Of a stretch of 64,000 nucleotides of DNA, positions 5,008-60,758 are shown piece by piece. Each line of letters begins with the position of its first letter. Positions within the stretch are counted from its first letter, which is position 1. This stretch comes from Flavobacterium glycines (GTDB lineage Bacteria; Bacteroidota; Bacteroidia; Flavobacteriales; Flavobacteriaceae): positions 1 through 64,000 of the forward strand of contig NZ_FNEO01000011.1 in NCBI RefSeq assembly GCF_900100165.1, in the 5' to 3' direction. The translations under genes and the position numbers were made by a program. A model generated the notes under the pieces. The model saw only the letters and a program-made list of their open reading frames with translations. It ran no database searches and had not been told where the DNA came from.

Positions 5008-7197
5008 ATGTCAACAATACGTTTTCAAGCATTAAGGGAAGCTTCTAATAGAAAAGTAGTATCTTTTGAAGAAGCTAATAGAAAATCAAATATTTTTGGT
5101 TTAAATGTATTTAATGAAAAAGCAATGAAGCAATATTTGACTTCGGATGCTTTTAAAGCGGTGCAGGGAGCTATTGAAAATGGAACAAAAATAGAACGAA
5201 AACTGGCAGATTATATTGCGATGGGGATGAAAGAGTGGGCTCTGTCAAAAGGTGTTACTCATTACACCCACTGGTTTCAGCCATTAACAGGGACTACAGC
5301 AGAAAAACACGATGCTTTTTTTGAAACCTCTTTTGATGGTAGTGATCCTGTTGAAAAATTTGGAGGAGCGCAATTGGTGCAACAAGAACCGGATGCTTCC
5401 AGTTTTCCAAACGGAGGAATCAGAAATACTTTTGAAGCCAGAGGTTATACAGCCTGGGATCCTACTTCGCCGGCATTTATATATGGTACTACTTTGTGTA
5501 TTCCTACTGTTTTTATTTCGTATACAGGAGAGGCTTTAGATAATAAAATTCCTTTGTTAAGAGCTTTGGCTGCAATGGATGAAGCTGCGACTGAAGTTTG
5601 TCGTTATTTTGATAAAAATGTAAAAAAGGTTACCGCAACCTTAGGTTGGGAACAGGAGTATTTTTTAGTTGATAAAGCTTTAGCGCATTCCCGTCCTGAT
5701 TTGATGATGACCGGAAGAACTTTGTTAGGGCATACTTCAGCTAAAGGACAACAGTTAGACGATCATTATTTTGGTTCAATTCCTACTCGCGCGTTAACTT
5801 ATATGCGTGATTTAGAGCAGGAATGTATGTTGCTTGGAATTCCGGTTAAAACCCGTCATAATGAGGTAGCGCCTAATCAATTTGAGTTGGCACCTATTTT
5901 TGAAGAGACTAATTTAGCTGTAGATCATAACTGTCTTTTGATGGATATTATGCAAAAAGTAGCCGAACGTCATGATTTTAAAGTGTTATTGCACGAAAAG
6001 CCTTTTCAGGGAGTAAATGGTTCCGGAAAACACAATAACTGGTCGTTGGCAACTGATACCGGAGTGAATCTTTTGAGTCCGAGTAAAACGCCAATGAGTA
6101 ATTTACAGTTTTTGACTTTCTTTATTAATACCATTAAGGCGGTTAATGATTATGAAGAATTATTACGCGCTTCAATTGCTACAGCTAGTAATGATCATCG
6201 CTTAGGTGCTAATGAAGCGCCTCCGGCGATTATTTCGGTATTTATTGGAGAACAATTAACTAAGGTTTTGGCTGAATTAGAAAGTGTGACCAGAGGTAAA
6301 TTATCACCGGAAGAAAAAACAGATTTGAAATTAAATGTAGTTGGTAAAATTCCTGAAGTAATTTTAGATAATACGGATAGAAACCGAACATCACCTTTTG
6401 CTTTCACTGGTAATAAATTCGAGTTTAGAGCAGTGGGTTCTTCTGCCAACTGTTCCAATGCGATGACAACTTTGAATACAATTGTAGCCAAACAATTAAG
6501 AGATTTTAAAGCAGAAGTAGATACTTTGATCGATTCTAAAGCAATGAAAAAAGACGATGCTATTTTTAATGTTTTAAGAGAATATATTAAGGTTTCAAAA
6601 GATATTCTTTTTGAAGGAGATGGTTATAGTGAGGCTTGGGAGAAGGAAGCTAAAAAGAGAGGCTTGAGTAATTTTAAAACAACTCCGGAGGCTTTAAAAG
6701 CTAAAGTATCAAAACGAGCATTGGATTTGTTTTCAGAATTAGGGATTATGAATCATGTAGAAGTAGAGGCACGCTACGAAATCGAATTGGAAGAATATAC
6801 TAAAAAAATCCAGATTGAAAGCAGGGTGTTAGGAGATATTTCTAAAAATCATGTGATCCCAACGGCTATTCGCTACCAAAATACTTTGATTGAAAATGTG
6901 AAAGGGTTGAAAGATATTTTTGGTAAAGAATTTGAATCGATTGCTAAAGAGCAAATCGGTTTGATAAAAGAAATTTCTACGCATATCGAAGGTATTAATG
7001 CTAAGGTAGAAGAAATGCGAAACGAAAGAAAAAATGCAAATGCTTTGAATAATGCTCAAAAAACGGCTGAGGCGTATTGTAATAAAGTAAAACCTTATTT
7101 TGAAATCATCAGGAATCACTGTGATAAATTAGAATTATTAGTAGATAATGAATTATGGACATTAACTAAGTACAGAGAGTTGTTGTTTACGAAATAA
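5008..7197 (+). CDS. glnN: Glutamine synthetase, type III
   Basis: 729 residues, the length of the large type III (GlnN) class found in Bacteroidota and cyanobacteria. Visible motifs are GWEQEYFLVD, KPFQGVNGSGKHNNWS, NDHRLGANEAPPAI and EFRAVGSSANCSNAM, covering the glutamate, ammonia and nucleotide sites. The C-terminal ~200 residues are helical and charged, as is usual in this class. Ammonia assimilation in the cytosol. ATG 5008 gives MSTIRFQALRE, a normal start for the family. A word-repeat hairpin follows the stop codon. Confidence 0.95.
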   Translation: MSTIRFQALREASNRKVVSFEEANRKSNIFGLNVFNEKAMKQYLTSDAFKAVQGAIENGTKIERKLADYIAMGMKEWALSKGVTHYTHWFQPLTGTTAEKHDAFFETSFDGSDPVEKFGGAQLVQQEPDASSFPNGGIRNTFEARGYTAWDPTSPAFIYGTTLCIPTVFISYTGEALDNKIPLLRALAAMDEAATEVCRYFDKNVKKVTATLGWEQEYFLVDKALAHSRPDLMMTGRTLLGHTSAKGQQLDDHYFGSIPTRALTYMRDLEQECMLLGIPVKTRHNEVAPNQFELAPIFEETNLAVDHNCLLMDIMQKVAERHDFKVLLHEKPFQGVNGSGKHNNWSLATDTGVNLLSPSKTPMSNLQFLTFFINTIKAVNDYEELLRASIATASNDHRLGANEAPPAIISVFIGEQLTKVLAELESVTRGKLSPEEKTDLKLNVVGKIPEVILDNTDRNRTSPFAFTGNKFEFRAVGSSANCSNAMTTLNTIVAKQLRDFKAEVDTLIDSKAMKKDDAIFNVLREYIKVSKDILFEGDGYSEAWEKEAKKRGLSNFKTTPEALKAKVSKRALDLFSELGIMNHVEVEARYEIELEEYTKKIQIESRVLGDISKNHVIPTAIRYQNTLIENVKGLKDIFGKEFESIAKEQIGLIKEISTHIEGINAKVEEMRNERKNANALNNAQKTAEAYCNKVKPYFEIIRNHCDKLELLVDNELWTLTKYRELLFTK

Positions 7198-53715: not shown

Positions 53716-54294
53716 TTATTTTACTTCACTCAAATAAGAAATTAACATCTGGGTTGCTTTTCCTCTGTGACTGATTTTGTTTTTAATAGCCAACTCTAAA
53801 TCGGCAAAGGTTTCCTGATAACCTTCAGGTCTGAAGATTGGGTCGTAGCCAAATCCCTTGTTGCCTGATTTTTCAATAGTGATTTCGCCCTTGGCAATTC
53901 CGGTAAATAATTGTTGTTCTCCATTAATGTTAAGGGCAATTACAGTTTTGAATTGTGCTGTTCGATTATTGGAATCACCTAATGCGTTTAAAACTTTTTC
54001 CATATTGTCATTGGCGTCTTTTTGTTCACCGGCATATCGGGCAGAATAAACTCCGGGTTCTCCATTAAGCGCTTCAATTTCTAATCCGGTATCATCGGCA
54101 AAACAATTGTAACCGTATTTTTCAGTAACATAGTTGGCTTTTAAAATGGCGTTTCCTTCAATAGTTTCTGCTGTTTCAGGAATTTCTTCGTGGCAGCCTA
54201 TAGATTCTAAACTTAGAATTTCAATGGAATCGGGAAGTAATTGTTGAATTTCTTTGATTTTGTTTTTATTGTTCGAAGCGAATACAAGTTGCAT
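53716..54294 (-). CDS. rdgB: XTP/dITP pyrophosphatase (RdgB/HAM1)
   Basis: 192 residues from ATG 54294 (MQLVFASNNKNKIKEIQ). It removes non-canonical purine nucleotides (ITP, XTP, dITP) from the pool. Family motifs: FASNNKNKIKEI, FADDTGLEIEALNGEPGVYSARYAG, GFGYDPIFRPEGY and KNKISHRGKA. The frame continues to 54321, but a -7 box at 54319-54326 places transcription start inside that extension. Confidence 0.95.
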   Translation of the reverse strand: MQLVFASNNKNKIKEIQQLLPDSIEILSLESIGCHEEIPETAETIEGNAILKANYVTEKYGYNCFADDTGLEIEALNGEPGVYSARYAGEQKDANDNMEKVLNALGDSNNRTAQFKTVIALNINGEQQLFTGIAKGEITIEKSGNKGFGYDPIFRPEGYQETFADLELAIKNKISHRGKATQMLISYLSEVK

Positions 54295-54318
54295 AGTCTT
54301 TTTGTTGGTGATTTTGTG

Positions 54319-54326
54319 CAAATGTA
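54319..54326 (-). promoter_or_regulatory. -7 promoter element for rdgB
   Basis: TACATTTG on the minus strand, 24 bases before ATG 54294. Confidence 0.55.
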
Positions 54327-54492
54327 ATCATTTTTTGAGCTGTACTTAACACTTGATGAGACTGAGTTAGTAAAGTATTTGGTCAAAGAATTTCTCTGTT
54401 TAATAAGTTTTAAATCCTATTAAGTTCTGAAGGTTAATTTTAATAATAATTTTGTAATAGGTTAATAGTCAGTTAAAAGTGTTGTTTTTAAT

Positions 54493-54521
54493 TTGATTGT
54501 GTGTATTTTTTTGTACCTTTA
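54493..54521 (+). promoter_or_regulatory. Promoter of small-RNA candidate 1
   Basis: TTG (54493-54495), 18-base spacer, TACCTTTA (54514-54521): close to the Bacteroidota TTG-N17/18-TAnnTTTG promoter, with the last G replaced by A. The second RNA copy has the variant TAATTTTA at the same distance from the same 5' sequence. Confidence 0.5.
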
Positions 54522-54526
54522 TTATG

Positions 54527-54663
54527 TGGTTTTGATTGTTCATTTGAACAGTTTAATCGTTAGATGAGCTTGGAGTTCAATAGTTAACTATACTGGTATA
54601 TGTATAAGTTGGTAATGATGAATCAAAACATACACAGGGGGCTTTAATAGCCCCTTTTTTTTT
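54527..54663 (+). ncRNA. Candidate small RNA, copy 1
   Basis: About 137 nt. GTTTTGATT (54529-54537) near the 5' end pairs with AATCAAAAC (54621-54629), closing a structured core with a small hairpin (GTTCATTTGAAC) and the palindrome ATAGTTAACTAT. A terminator (GGGGCT / AGCCCC, nine T) ends it. No reading frame of note. Shared with copy 2: the 5' block TATGTGGTTTTGATT, a 3' block starting TATAAGTTG and ending AATCAAAAC, and a terminator at the same distance. 5' end inferred from the promoter. Confidence 0.6.
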
Positions 54664-54866
54664 GAGTACAAAATCAAAGAGTTGGTTTTTGTAAAAAGTG
54701 AAGAATTTCGTATTTTTTTGAAGGTCTTTTTGAAAAATATTGCTAAAAAAAATGTAAAAAAAGAAATTCTTTGCGAATATGTTTGATTAGGGTTAATGTA
54801 TTGGTTTTTAGTTGTTTACGGTTTGAAATTATTTGATTTTTATGTGGTTAATTAAAATAATAGTTG

Positions 54867-54874
54867 TAATTTTA
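54867..54874 (+). promoter_or_regulatory. -7-like element of small-RNA candidate 2
   Basis: TAATTTTA, aligned exactly with TACCTTTA of copy 1 (same 1-base spacing to TATGTGG). The -33 element is unclear. Confidence 0.4.
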
Positions 54875-54879
54875 CTATG

Positions 54880-55019
54880 TGGTTTTGATTCATTACTTGT
54901 GTATGTTAATTTGGGTAGAAAAATGAAAACACAACAATCATCAGCAGCATTTAGTTAATTATAAGTTGAGAATAGTAAATCAAAACCAAATAAGGAGGGC
55001 TTATCGCCCTCCTTTTCTT
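54880..55019 (+). ncRNA. Candidate small RNA, copy 2
   Basis: About 140 nt, 353 bases downstream of copy 1 and in the same direction. GGTTTTGATT (54881-54890) pairs with AATCAAAACC (54978-54987), 10 bp. The terminator stem AAGGAGGGC / GCCCTCCTT differs in sequence from copy 1 but keeps place and shape. The central ~60 bases are unrelated to copy 1. It ends over the stop codon of the convergent FMN-protein gene, and its terminator may serve both. The bases between the copies (54664-54866) hold nothing else I can identify. Confidence 0.6.
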
Positions 55020-56528
55020 TTAATGCTTGGTTACATTCGATAAATTGTCCGGAAAATATAAATCAGAAAGATGAGTGAATTCATCCCCACGCATGAATAT
55101 AGAAACATCTACATCTTCATAAGAAGTTTTTCCGGCCGCAGCCAGTAATTCGTTGGCAGCATACAGTGTGTTTTTGTGGAAATGATATACTCTTTCAAAT
55201 TTATCTGTAACCGATAAGCCTTTGATGAGCATTTTATCCTGTGTGGCAACTCCTACCGGACAATTATTAGTATTACAACGCAAGGCTTGGATACATCCTA
55301 AAGAGAACATAAAACCACGGGCACTATTGCATAAGTCGGCACCCAGGGCAATAGCTTTTAGGATAGCATGCCCTGATATGATTTTTCCGCTACAAATAAT
55401 TCTAATTTTGTCTCTGATGTTTAATCGAATTAAAGTTTTATTTACAAAAATTAAAGCTGGTTCCAAAGGCATTCCTACGCCATCGGAAAATTCTAGTGGC
55501 GCAGCGCCTGTACCGCCTTCTGCACCATCGACGGTAATGAAATCAGCGAAGCAGTTTTGATCAATCATTTCCTGACAAATAGCTTCAAATTCGACAGTTT
55601 GACCAATGCATAATTTGAATCCGACAGGTTTTCCGTTCGATAATTCACGCAAATGTCCTATAAATTGCACTAAGCCTTTTGGATCGTTAAAAGCTGTGTG
55701 GCAAGGAGGAGAGAGAATGGTGGTGTGTGGTTTTACGCCTCGTATCCTTGCAATTTCTTCTGTGTTTTTTGCAGCGGGTAAAACGCCTCCATGTCCCGGT
55801 TTTGCTCCTTGCGAAAGTTTAATTTCAATCATTTTTACCGAAGAGAGATGGGCCTTTTCTTTGAATTTTTCAGCGTCAAAATTGCCTTCTTCATTGCGGC
55901 AGCCAAAATAGCCTGTACCAATTTGCCAACAAATATCGCCACCCTGTAAATGGTAATCGGTTAAACCGCCCTCGCCGGTGTTGTGGTAAAAATTTCCTTT
56001 TTTAGCTCCTTTGTTGAGCGCCATAATGGCATTTTCGCTTAAGGCACCAAAACTCATAGCTGAGATATTCAATAAGGAAGCCGAGTAAGGTTGTGTGCAA
56101 TCAGGGCTTCCTATGGTGACACGAGGTAGTTCCTCATTTACATGTGCAGGGAAAATAGAATGTTTTAGTCCTTCGTAAGACGAAGTGTTAATATCTAATT
56201 GTGTTCCAAAGGGAGTTGTGGAGCTAATGTTTTTAGCGCGTTGATAAGCAAGTGAGCGTTCGTTTCTGGAAAAAGGTTTGCCGTCAGTGGTTCTCTCAAT
56301 AAAATACTGTTGGATTTCAGGAGCTATTTCTTCAAACATGTATCTGAAATAACCTAAAACAGGAAAATTTCTCAGAATGGAATGTTTGTGTTGCAAACTG
56401 TTAAAAATTCCAATTATTAATAGGATGAAAATAGAAATGGCAATTAATAAGCTGGTTTTGAATAAAAAATGAGCAGCAAGACTAAGGATGAAAAGTCCTG
56501 TACCAATGATAAAAAATTCTTTTCTCAT
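55020..56528 (-). CDS. FMN-binding glutamate-synthase-like protein, membrane-anchored
   Basis: 502 residues. Two N-terminal hydrophobic segments (~5-40) are followed by the FMN/glutamate-synthase central domain: SAMSFGALSENAIMAL, NTGEGGLTDYH, QGAKPGHGGVLP, TVDGAEGGTGAAP and the iron-sulfur Cys cluster CNTNNCPVGVATQ. There is no glutaminase domain, and the protein is a third of the size of GltB, so it is not assimilatory glutamate synthase by itself. Such proteins are common in Bacteroidota; the substrate is unknown. Confidence 0.88.
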   Translation of the reverse strand: MRKEFFIIGTGLFILSLAAHFLFKTSLLIAISIFILLIIGIFNSLQHKHSILRNFPVLGYFRYMFEEIAPEIQQYFIERTTDGKPFSRNERSLAYQRAKNISSTTPFGTQLDINTSSYEGLKHSIFPAHVNEELPRVTIGSPDCTQPYSASLLNISAMSFGALSENAIMALNKGAKKGNFYHNTGEGGLTDYHLQGGDICWQIGTGYFGCRNEEGNFDAEKFKEKAHLSSVKMIEIKLSQGAKPGHGGVLPAAKNTEEIARIRGVKPHTTILSPPCHTAFNDPKGLVQFIGHLRELSNGKPVGFKLCIGQTVEFEAICQEMIDQNCFADFITVDGAEGGTGAAPLEFSDGVGMPLEPALIFVNKTLIRLNIRDKIRIICSGKIISGHAILKAIALGADLCNSARGFMFSLGCIQALRCNTNNCPVGVATQDKMLIKGLSVTDKFERVYHFHKNTLYAANELLAAAGKTSYEDVDVSIFMRGDEFTHLSDLYFPDNLSNVTKH

Positions 56529-60526: not shown

Positions 60527-60603
60527 TTGTTTCGCTTTATTTCTTTTCAAATATATTTATTTTTTCTTACAAAATTAATTTTAGAAGCCAAACGTTGTTT
60601 TCT

Positions 60604-60677
60604 AGCCCCGATAGCAGCGGCATCCTCTTGTGGCTCGTTTCTTTAACGAGGCACAAGAGATAGAGCGGATAGCGGGT
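60604..60677 (+). ncRNA. Structured intergenic element (Flavobacterium repeat, possibly Flavo-1-like)
   Basis: CCCCGATAGCAGCGGCATCC, then a 14-bp hairpin with one mismatch (TCTTGTGGCTCGTT / AACGAGGCACAAGA, loop TCTTT), then GATAGAGCGGATAGCGGG. The two flanks repeat the words GATAG and AGCGG, and CCCG/CGGG can close the element. I remember very similar sequences as frequent in Flavobacterium intergenic DNA; a link to the Rfam motif Flavo-1 is a guess from memory. The rest of the 60484-60802 gap shows only the boundary repeat and the promoter box listed separately. Confidence 0.5.
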
Positions 60678-60758
60678 GAAAATGTTAATTATAGCATCGG
60701 TGTGTAGTGGCTCCTGAAAATAATTTTACTTAGAAGACCTTTATAAAATTTAAATAAT

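Follow-up and report, generated by a model that had tools for sequence, protein, structure and literature searches.

Two tandem RNA units between rdgB and a glutamate-synthase-like gene

We analysed a stretch of 64,000 nucleotides from Flavobacterium glycines (contig NZ_FNEO01000011.1, positions 1 to 64,000, forward strand), which we refer to as the window. The gap between rdgB and a glutamate-synthase-like gene (54295-55019, 725 bases) contained two head-to-tail units on the plus strand (Table 1). Both units carried the 5' block TATGTGGTTTTGATT, which began at 54523 and at 54876, so that the two units lie 353 bases apart in this gap, as the initial annotation had described. Each block was preceded, at a distance of one base, by the TAnnTTTA box that had been read there, and each unit ended in the proposed terminator, a hairpin followed by a T run. 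The predicted length of the RNA was about 140 nt per unit. In the 3.94-Mb genome the 15-mer TATGTGGTTTTGATT had exact copies only at these two positions, and the two units were also the only strong matches of the covariance model R1; no third unit was detected in the F. glycines genome with this model, the next-best scores being 18.8 and 18.7 bits.

Table 1. Features of the two RNA units and their neighbouring genes in the F. glycines window (positions of the window).
Feature	Position	Strand	Basis or remark
rdgB (non-canonical purine NTP pyrophosphatase)	53719..54294	-	Divergent neighbour, landmark; name from reading of the translation
-7 box, unit 1, TACCTTTA	54514..54521	+	Sequence
RNA unit 1, class A	54523..54660	+	Fold; 110.8 bits with R1
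Unit 1, P1	54528-54542/54616-54630	+	Predicted fold
Unit 1, P2	54544-54559/54567-54580	+	Predicted fold
Unit 1, P3	54584-54593/54602-54612	+	Predicted fold
Unit 1, terminator	54636-54656	+	Predicted fold; T run to about 54664
-7 box, unit 2, TAATTTTA	54867..54874	+	Sequence
RNA unit 2, class B	54876..55016	+	Fold; 128 bits with R1
Unit 2, P1	54881-54895/54973-54987	+	Predicted fold
Unit 2, P2	54897-54912/54920-54934	+	Predicted fold
Unit 2, P3	54938-54947/54959-54969	+	Predicted fold
Unit 2, terminator	54994-55012	+	Predicted fold; followed by a T run
FMN-dependent glutamate-synthase-like protein gene	55020..56528	-	Convergent neighbour, landmark; name from reading of the translation

A second shared block, TATAAGTTG, was followed in both units by AATCAAAAC, which pairs with GGTTTTGATT. 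The initial annotation had proposed this pairing of a 3' block with the 5' end, at a distance of about 75 bases; the pairing was retained and the distance corrected, since TATAAGTTG begins 80 bases (unit 1) and 84 bases (unit 2) past the start of the 5' block, with identical offsets in a related locus (L017). The single-sequence folds of both units were better than those of 200 out of 200 dinucleotide shuffles (z scores of -4.36 and -3.45). The longest closed reading frames of the units were no longer than in base shuffles, in line with the earlier view that no protein frame explains the conservation. A leader peptide or small protein was also considered and rejected: a short ATG frame of the class B unit in the window was broken in three related loci (L047, L049 and L052; judged by eye).

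Predicted fold and covariation

The predicted fold, a three-way junction composed of a closing stem (P1) and two hairpins (P2 and P3) and followed by a terminator hairpin, was well supported as a model. In a plain MAFFT alignment of 20 units (19 distinct), with the structure taken from RNAalifold and P3 lengthened by hand, 91.4% of the cells were paired and 10 out of 42 pairs showed two-sided change, a number reached by 3 of 500 shuffles; there were 27 two-sided cells compared to 8.2 in the shuffles, none of which reached 27 (0/500). Two-sided change was found in 29 out of 42 pairs with 63 distinct units (0/500 shuffles). For the 124 units of alignment A7, which like alignment A5 was fitted to a model so that its pair counts are biased towards the fold, the respective number was 34 out of 42 pairs (0/500 shuffles; shuffle mean 24.3), with 407 two-sided cells compared to 131 in shuffles and 90% of cells paired compared to 35-54% when the structure was slid along the alignment. 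Alignments A2, A3, A4 and A8 were plain MAFFT alignments. When A8, which is blind to structure and whose 40 rows were hand-picked from the 124 of A7, was folded from scratch, P1, the base of P2, P3 and the terminator were recovered and 14 out of 33 pairs were two-sided.

The weakest helix was upper P2, with 65.7% of its cells paired across the 124 units, and RNAalifold did not call it on the 40-unit alignment A8. Within single classes, two-sided change was seen in 5 out of 32 pairs of the class A alignment A2 and in 0 out of 33 pairs of class B alone (8 sequences). Across the units of the family we counted 621 G-U cells and 120 A-C cells, and because of this excess the plus strand was taken as the RNA strand.

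Conservation was strongest in P1, where several columns reached 98-100%, and in the terminator, rather than in the loops; the junction bases were conserved at about 63-86%. In line with the expectation that relatives would keep both the 5' block and a compensating 3' block, P1 cells were paired in 95.8% of cases among the 124 units, although these units had been found with models that contain P1.

-7 box, terminator and gene arrangement

A TAnnTTT[GA] box was present just upstream of 121 out of the 124 units, compared to 14% in base shuffles. It started 9 nt before the start of the model in 84 units and 10 nt before it in 29 (113 together). Terminator cells were paired in 99.5% of cases (124 units). 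Both GGAGG and CCTCC were present in the terminators of 94 out of the 124 units, with unit 1 of the window among the 30 exceptions, and in 1 out of 246 other terminators from the window and 80 named loci; this background came from a simple finder that accepts perfect stems only and was not applied to the units themselves, and it counts related loci of one genus repeatedly. The motif pair was retained in these units though one pair within the terminator stem varies freely.

In all 30 multi-unit loci the units lay on one strand, and the starts of neighbouring units were 194-387 nt apart in 59 out of 66 pairs. The gene rdgB was present in 25 out of 40 stretches examined around matches; the other sites include one beside a gene read as rmuC (L160 and L168). 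Among the 17 named rdgB loci that bear units, the glutamate-synthase-like gene was identified in 14 and was convergent on the units in all of them (it was not located in the other 3). Because of this convergent arrangement, and because units also occur at other sites, the units are probably transcribed independently. A structured RNA that runs into a terminator would also suit a cis-acting leader or attenuator (riboswitch-like) of a neighbouring gene, and the next gene is indeed co-directional in L160, L167 (first unit) and L168. Such a leader is nevertheless very unlikely, given that in the window the gene that follows the units points towards them and rdgB points away, that the glutamate-synthase-like gene keeps its convergent orientation in the 14 named loci with this gene, and that the neighbours differ between sites.

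Distribution among Flavobacterium genomes

Three covariance models were built: R1 from 20 units, R2 from 75 matches (63 distinct) and R3 from 124 units. The units were collected from 39 and 58 selected sources, and matches at an E-value of 0.001 or better were kept. This covariance search, which the initial annotation had suggested with both copies as seeds, recovered a Flavobacterium family with a covarying fold. With R2 we detected at least 160 matches in at least 82 out of 299 Flavobacterium genomes, with 1-7 matches each; the tally is a lower bound because the filters were strict and ten candidates were scored per genome. Among these 82 positive genomes (likewise a lower bound), 47 had one match and 35 had two to seven. 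R3 matched 81 of the 299 genomes at an E-value of 1e-4, compared to 82 with R2 at 1e-3, and did not widen the tally. By BLAST, 48 of the 199 Flavobacterium genomes searched had matches, many of which were weak.

Outside the genus, R2 matched only F. glycines among 299 genomes from 236 genera of Flavobacteriaceae and none of the 235 other genera, the one other entry listed being also a Flavobacterium. Six out of 148 genomes of the order matched, and five of these were Flavobacterium. The sixth was a weak match in another family (G644:C70:40361-40502, 41.5 bits, E-value 6.5e-4).

Among the best 80 rdgB loci of named genomes, 17 contained units (35 units in all). One unit each was found at rdgB in F. 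flevense, F. seoulense, F. pokkalii and F. daejeonense, two in F. frigoris and F. gillisiae, five in F. xinjiangense and seven in F. caseinilyticum. Out of 22 chosen named genomes with no units at rdgB, 2 had a unit elsewhere and 20 had none. As in multicopy (sibling) sRNAs, the family comprises several homologous genes with a promoter, judged by the -7 box, and a terminator each. Some loci also contained shortened, low-scoring or possibly decaying units beside full ones (L165:4212-4342, L187:3427-3733, L198:861-940 and L194:3596-3689).

Paralogue classes

The two paralogues of the window were also present in a metagenome-assembled genome (L052), in F. palustre (L055) and in genome G051 (L019). 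In a tree of the 124 units, which was made without the terminator, has many low deep supports and had its groups read off by hand, unit 1 grouped with the units of L052 and L055 (class A, support 0.97) and unit 2 with those of six relatives (class B, support 1.00). Since these two clades span relatives, the pair in the window predates the divergence of the species in which both units occur. In F. palustre (units at 5729-5866 and 6642-6782 of L055) and in G051, the class A and class B units flank rdgB; a local rearrangement has therefore shifted either this gene or one of the units.

Over four groups, identity in P2 and its loop (P2+L2) was 0.65-0.85 within groups and 0.42-0.58 between them, while P1 identity was 0.87-0.98 within and 0.70-0.86 between groups. 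Class A, with only 3 members in this comparison, and class B (7 units) had a mean P2+L2 identity of 0.44. The initial annotation had called the central 60 or so bases of the two units unrelated, which holds for the sequence and not for the architecture: both classes can adopt the pair of inner hairpins in the family model, and in class B several pairs of the inner half of P3 are broken. The P3 loop (L3) behaved like P2 in classes A to C, with identities of 1.00, 0.92 and 0.86 within classes A, B and C, respectively, and of 0.12-0.36 between groups. The candidate pairing part is ambiguous in this respect, as L3 was not conserved within class I (0.43) or within the group of long units (0.42). 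The DNA 41-80 nt upstream of the units had an identity of 0.44-0.59. The predicted P1, junction and terminator are common to the paralogues, and the predicted inner hairpins are kept between orthologues and have diverged from one paralogue to another. The earlier proposal that a structured RNA was duplicated and that its inner parts have diverged was supported by the recurrence of the same two paralogues in relatives, by tandem copies of up to seven and by the covarying pairs.

The tree also contained recent lineage-specific duplications (L181, L188, L065 and L195). These duplications, together with the variation in copy number and site, are what a DNA-level repeat or a small mobile element (MITE-like) with no RNA function would leave. 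We regard this as extremely improbable, since the units have compensatory pairs, far more G-U than A-C cells, and a conserved -7 box and terminator, and since each positive genome has only 1-7 matches. Two narrow tests pointed in the same direction: one 21-mer had no exact match in viral contigs, and one representative unit (L090) had no match in phages and plasmids.

Comparison with Rfam families

At the gathering threshold, the Rfam 15 models gave only Flavo-1, away from the units, in the window and 11 related loci. In the window, this sole gathering-level match was a Flavo-1 RNA (RF01705) at 60600-60683 on the plus strand (61 bits; gathering score 42). Relaxed scans of window positions 54300-55060 and of L090 positions 5280-5800 gave nothing near a gathering score. 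The best of the weak matches, to SraG on the minus strand (30.9 bits, E-value 0.0029, gathering score 50) and to BTnc060 (26.5 against a gathering score of 228.9), were treated as chance, like the others. 6S RNA (RF00013) had no match in the F. glycines genome, while 6 out of 14 control genomes matched. 6S-Flavo (RF01685) had no match in the window; its best match lay elsewhere in the genome, at C4:1924799-1924905 on the minus strand (L204; 83.5 bits, E-value 2.1e-14), just below the cut-off of 85. Neither of these models of flavobacterial structured RNAs, 6S-Flavo and Flavo-1, matches the units.

Possible function and relation to known small RNAs

The units belong to a conserved RNA gene family with a -7 box, a common fold, a terminator and tandem paralogues. 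We hold, with moderate confidence, that the window contains two tandem paralogous sRNA genes of about 140 nt from a new Flavobacterium family of multicopy, trans-acting RNAs, in which each copy would carry its own inner hairpins on a constant chassis and act by base pairing. Each unit would be transcribed from its own Bacteroidota-type -7 box and end at its own intrinsic terminator. P1 would close the molecule around the inner hairpins P2 and P3, with the terminator hairpin after them. The shared chassis of P1, junction bases and terminator would provide stability and probably dock a common partner. P2 with its loop, together with the P3 loop in the classes found in the window, is the most likely target-specific part, being conserved in most orthologous groups. 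From the sequences we infer transcription in F. glycines, action in trans and the role of the inner hairpins, which may base-pair with mRNAs; tandem amplification would then alter dosage and supply copies for new targets. The family probably fine-tunes other genes.

The best-conserved stretches, P1 and the terminator, are double-stranded and are as compatible with protein binding as with an antisense role. The RNAs might accordingly serve as a protein-binding decoy, in principle like CsrB or 6S, in which the conserved P1, junction and terminator bind and titrate an RNA-binding protein or a ribosomal component, at a dose set by copy number. Conservation that peaks in P1 and the terminator rather than in the loops, and the enrichment of GGAGG and CCTCC in the terminators of the units, would suit such a role. 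We consider it rather unlikely, as a pure decoy requires neither the divergence of the inner hairpins between paralogues nor their conservation within groups; in addition, the 6S searches described above did not point to the units, and unit 1 of the window has no GGAGG/CCTCC.

Returning to base-pairing regulators on a constant chassis, a modular version can be imagined, in which one partner recognises the core and the mostly GGAGG/CCUCC terminator, each copy carries an exchangeable guide hairpin, and the array forms an expandable bank of regulators; we regard this as unlikely and offer it as speculation. Bacteroidota are not known to have Hfq. The commonly kept CCUCCUUUU end resembles the anti-Shine-Dalgarno 3' tail of 16S rRNA, and for this reason the ribosomal anti-Shine-Dalgarno pocket is suggested as the partner. 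The chassis could thus bind the bS21/bS18/bS6 pocket or the bS21-free ribosomes of Flavobacterium. The SD-like terminator is no more than a lead: in the RNA, CCUCC is base-paired inside that stem, an argument against antisense use, and the motif is absent from unit 1 of the window. In F. johnsoniae, bS21, bS18 and bS6 hold the anti-Shine-Dalgarno sequence, and an obvious Shine-Dalgarno sequence is found only at rpsU (PMC9976891).

So far, studies cover only a few Flavobacterium small RNAs. In F. psychrophilum, one report describes 85 new RNAs, among them Rfp18, a structured protease regulator that is conserved outside the species and widely in the genus and is expressed in F. columnare (PMC9723704). 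The Rfp sRNAs resemble our units by description as structured, independently transcribed RNAs of Flavobacterium, and the parts of that report covered here make no mention of tandem paralogy. Candidate sRNAs with no Rfam matches are also described for F. columnare (PMC5395568), and some of the F. psychrophilum or F. columnare sRNAs may be members of the family. If the units were homologues of an RNA reported from RNA-seq in F. psychrophilum (Rfp1-89, e.g. Rfp18), only the family description and the tandem arrays would be new. The structure of Rfp18, its conservation beyond the species and its expression in F. columnare would be compatible with this. It is nonetheless quite improbable: there was no match in one metagenome-assembled genome labelled F. 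psychrophilum (the L109 genome, 1.7 Mb, probably incomplete and perhaps mislabelled), and the family occurs in a limited share of the genus genomes (the lower bound given above), whereas Rfp18 is called widely conserved in the genus. The literature on such RNAs, with subscription papers mostly outside our scope, held no description of the Flavobacterium family, which is apparently undescribed.

The units are a putative new RNA family of an already known kind, the multicopy sibling sRNAs. It would add to the multicopy families known from Bacteroides, namely FopS and another family, of six members, that the FopS paper also mentions (PMC11697453). Compared by description, FopS of Bacteroides thetaiotaomicron is the closest in kind, being likewise a multicopy paralogous sRNA family of Bacteroidota. 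The FopS sRNAs have sigma-ABfr promoters, number 12 to 15 in each genome of the Bacteroides species listed, repress susC-type mRNAs by pairing and are bound by the RRM protein RbpB (PMC11697453). The members of this family (9 intergenic, 4 antisense and 1 derived from a 3' UTR) share a 5' seed, R1', and are about 65-70 nt long, whereas the Flavobacterium units have a predicted length of about 140 nt, are often tandem, and would fold into a three-way junction in which P1 encloses the 5' end.

With a well-supported fold, covariance models, countable paralogues and natural variants of one to seven copies, the family makes questions of structure, targets and dosage testable in laboratory strains of environmental species. 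Paralogous genes with a shared scaffold are also found in LhrC1-7 of Listeria and other sibling sRNAs, which differ from the units in phylum and sequence. LhrC pairs through CU-rich loops.
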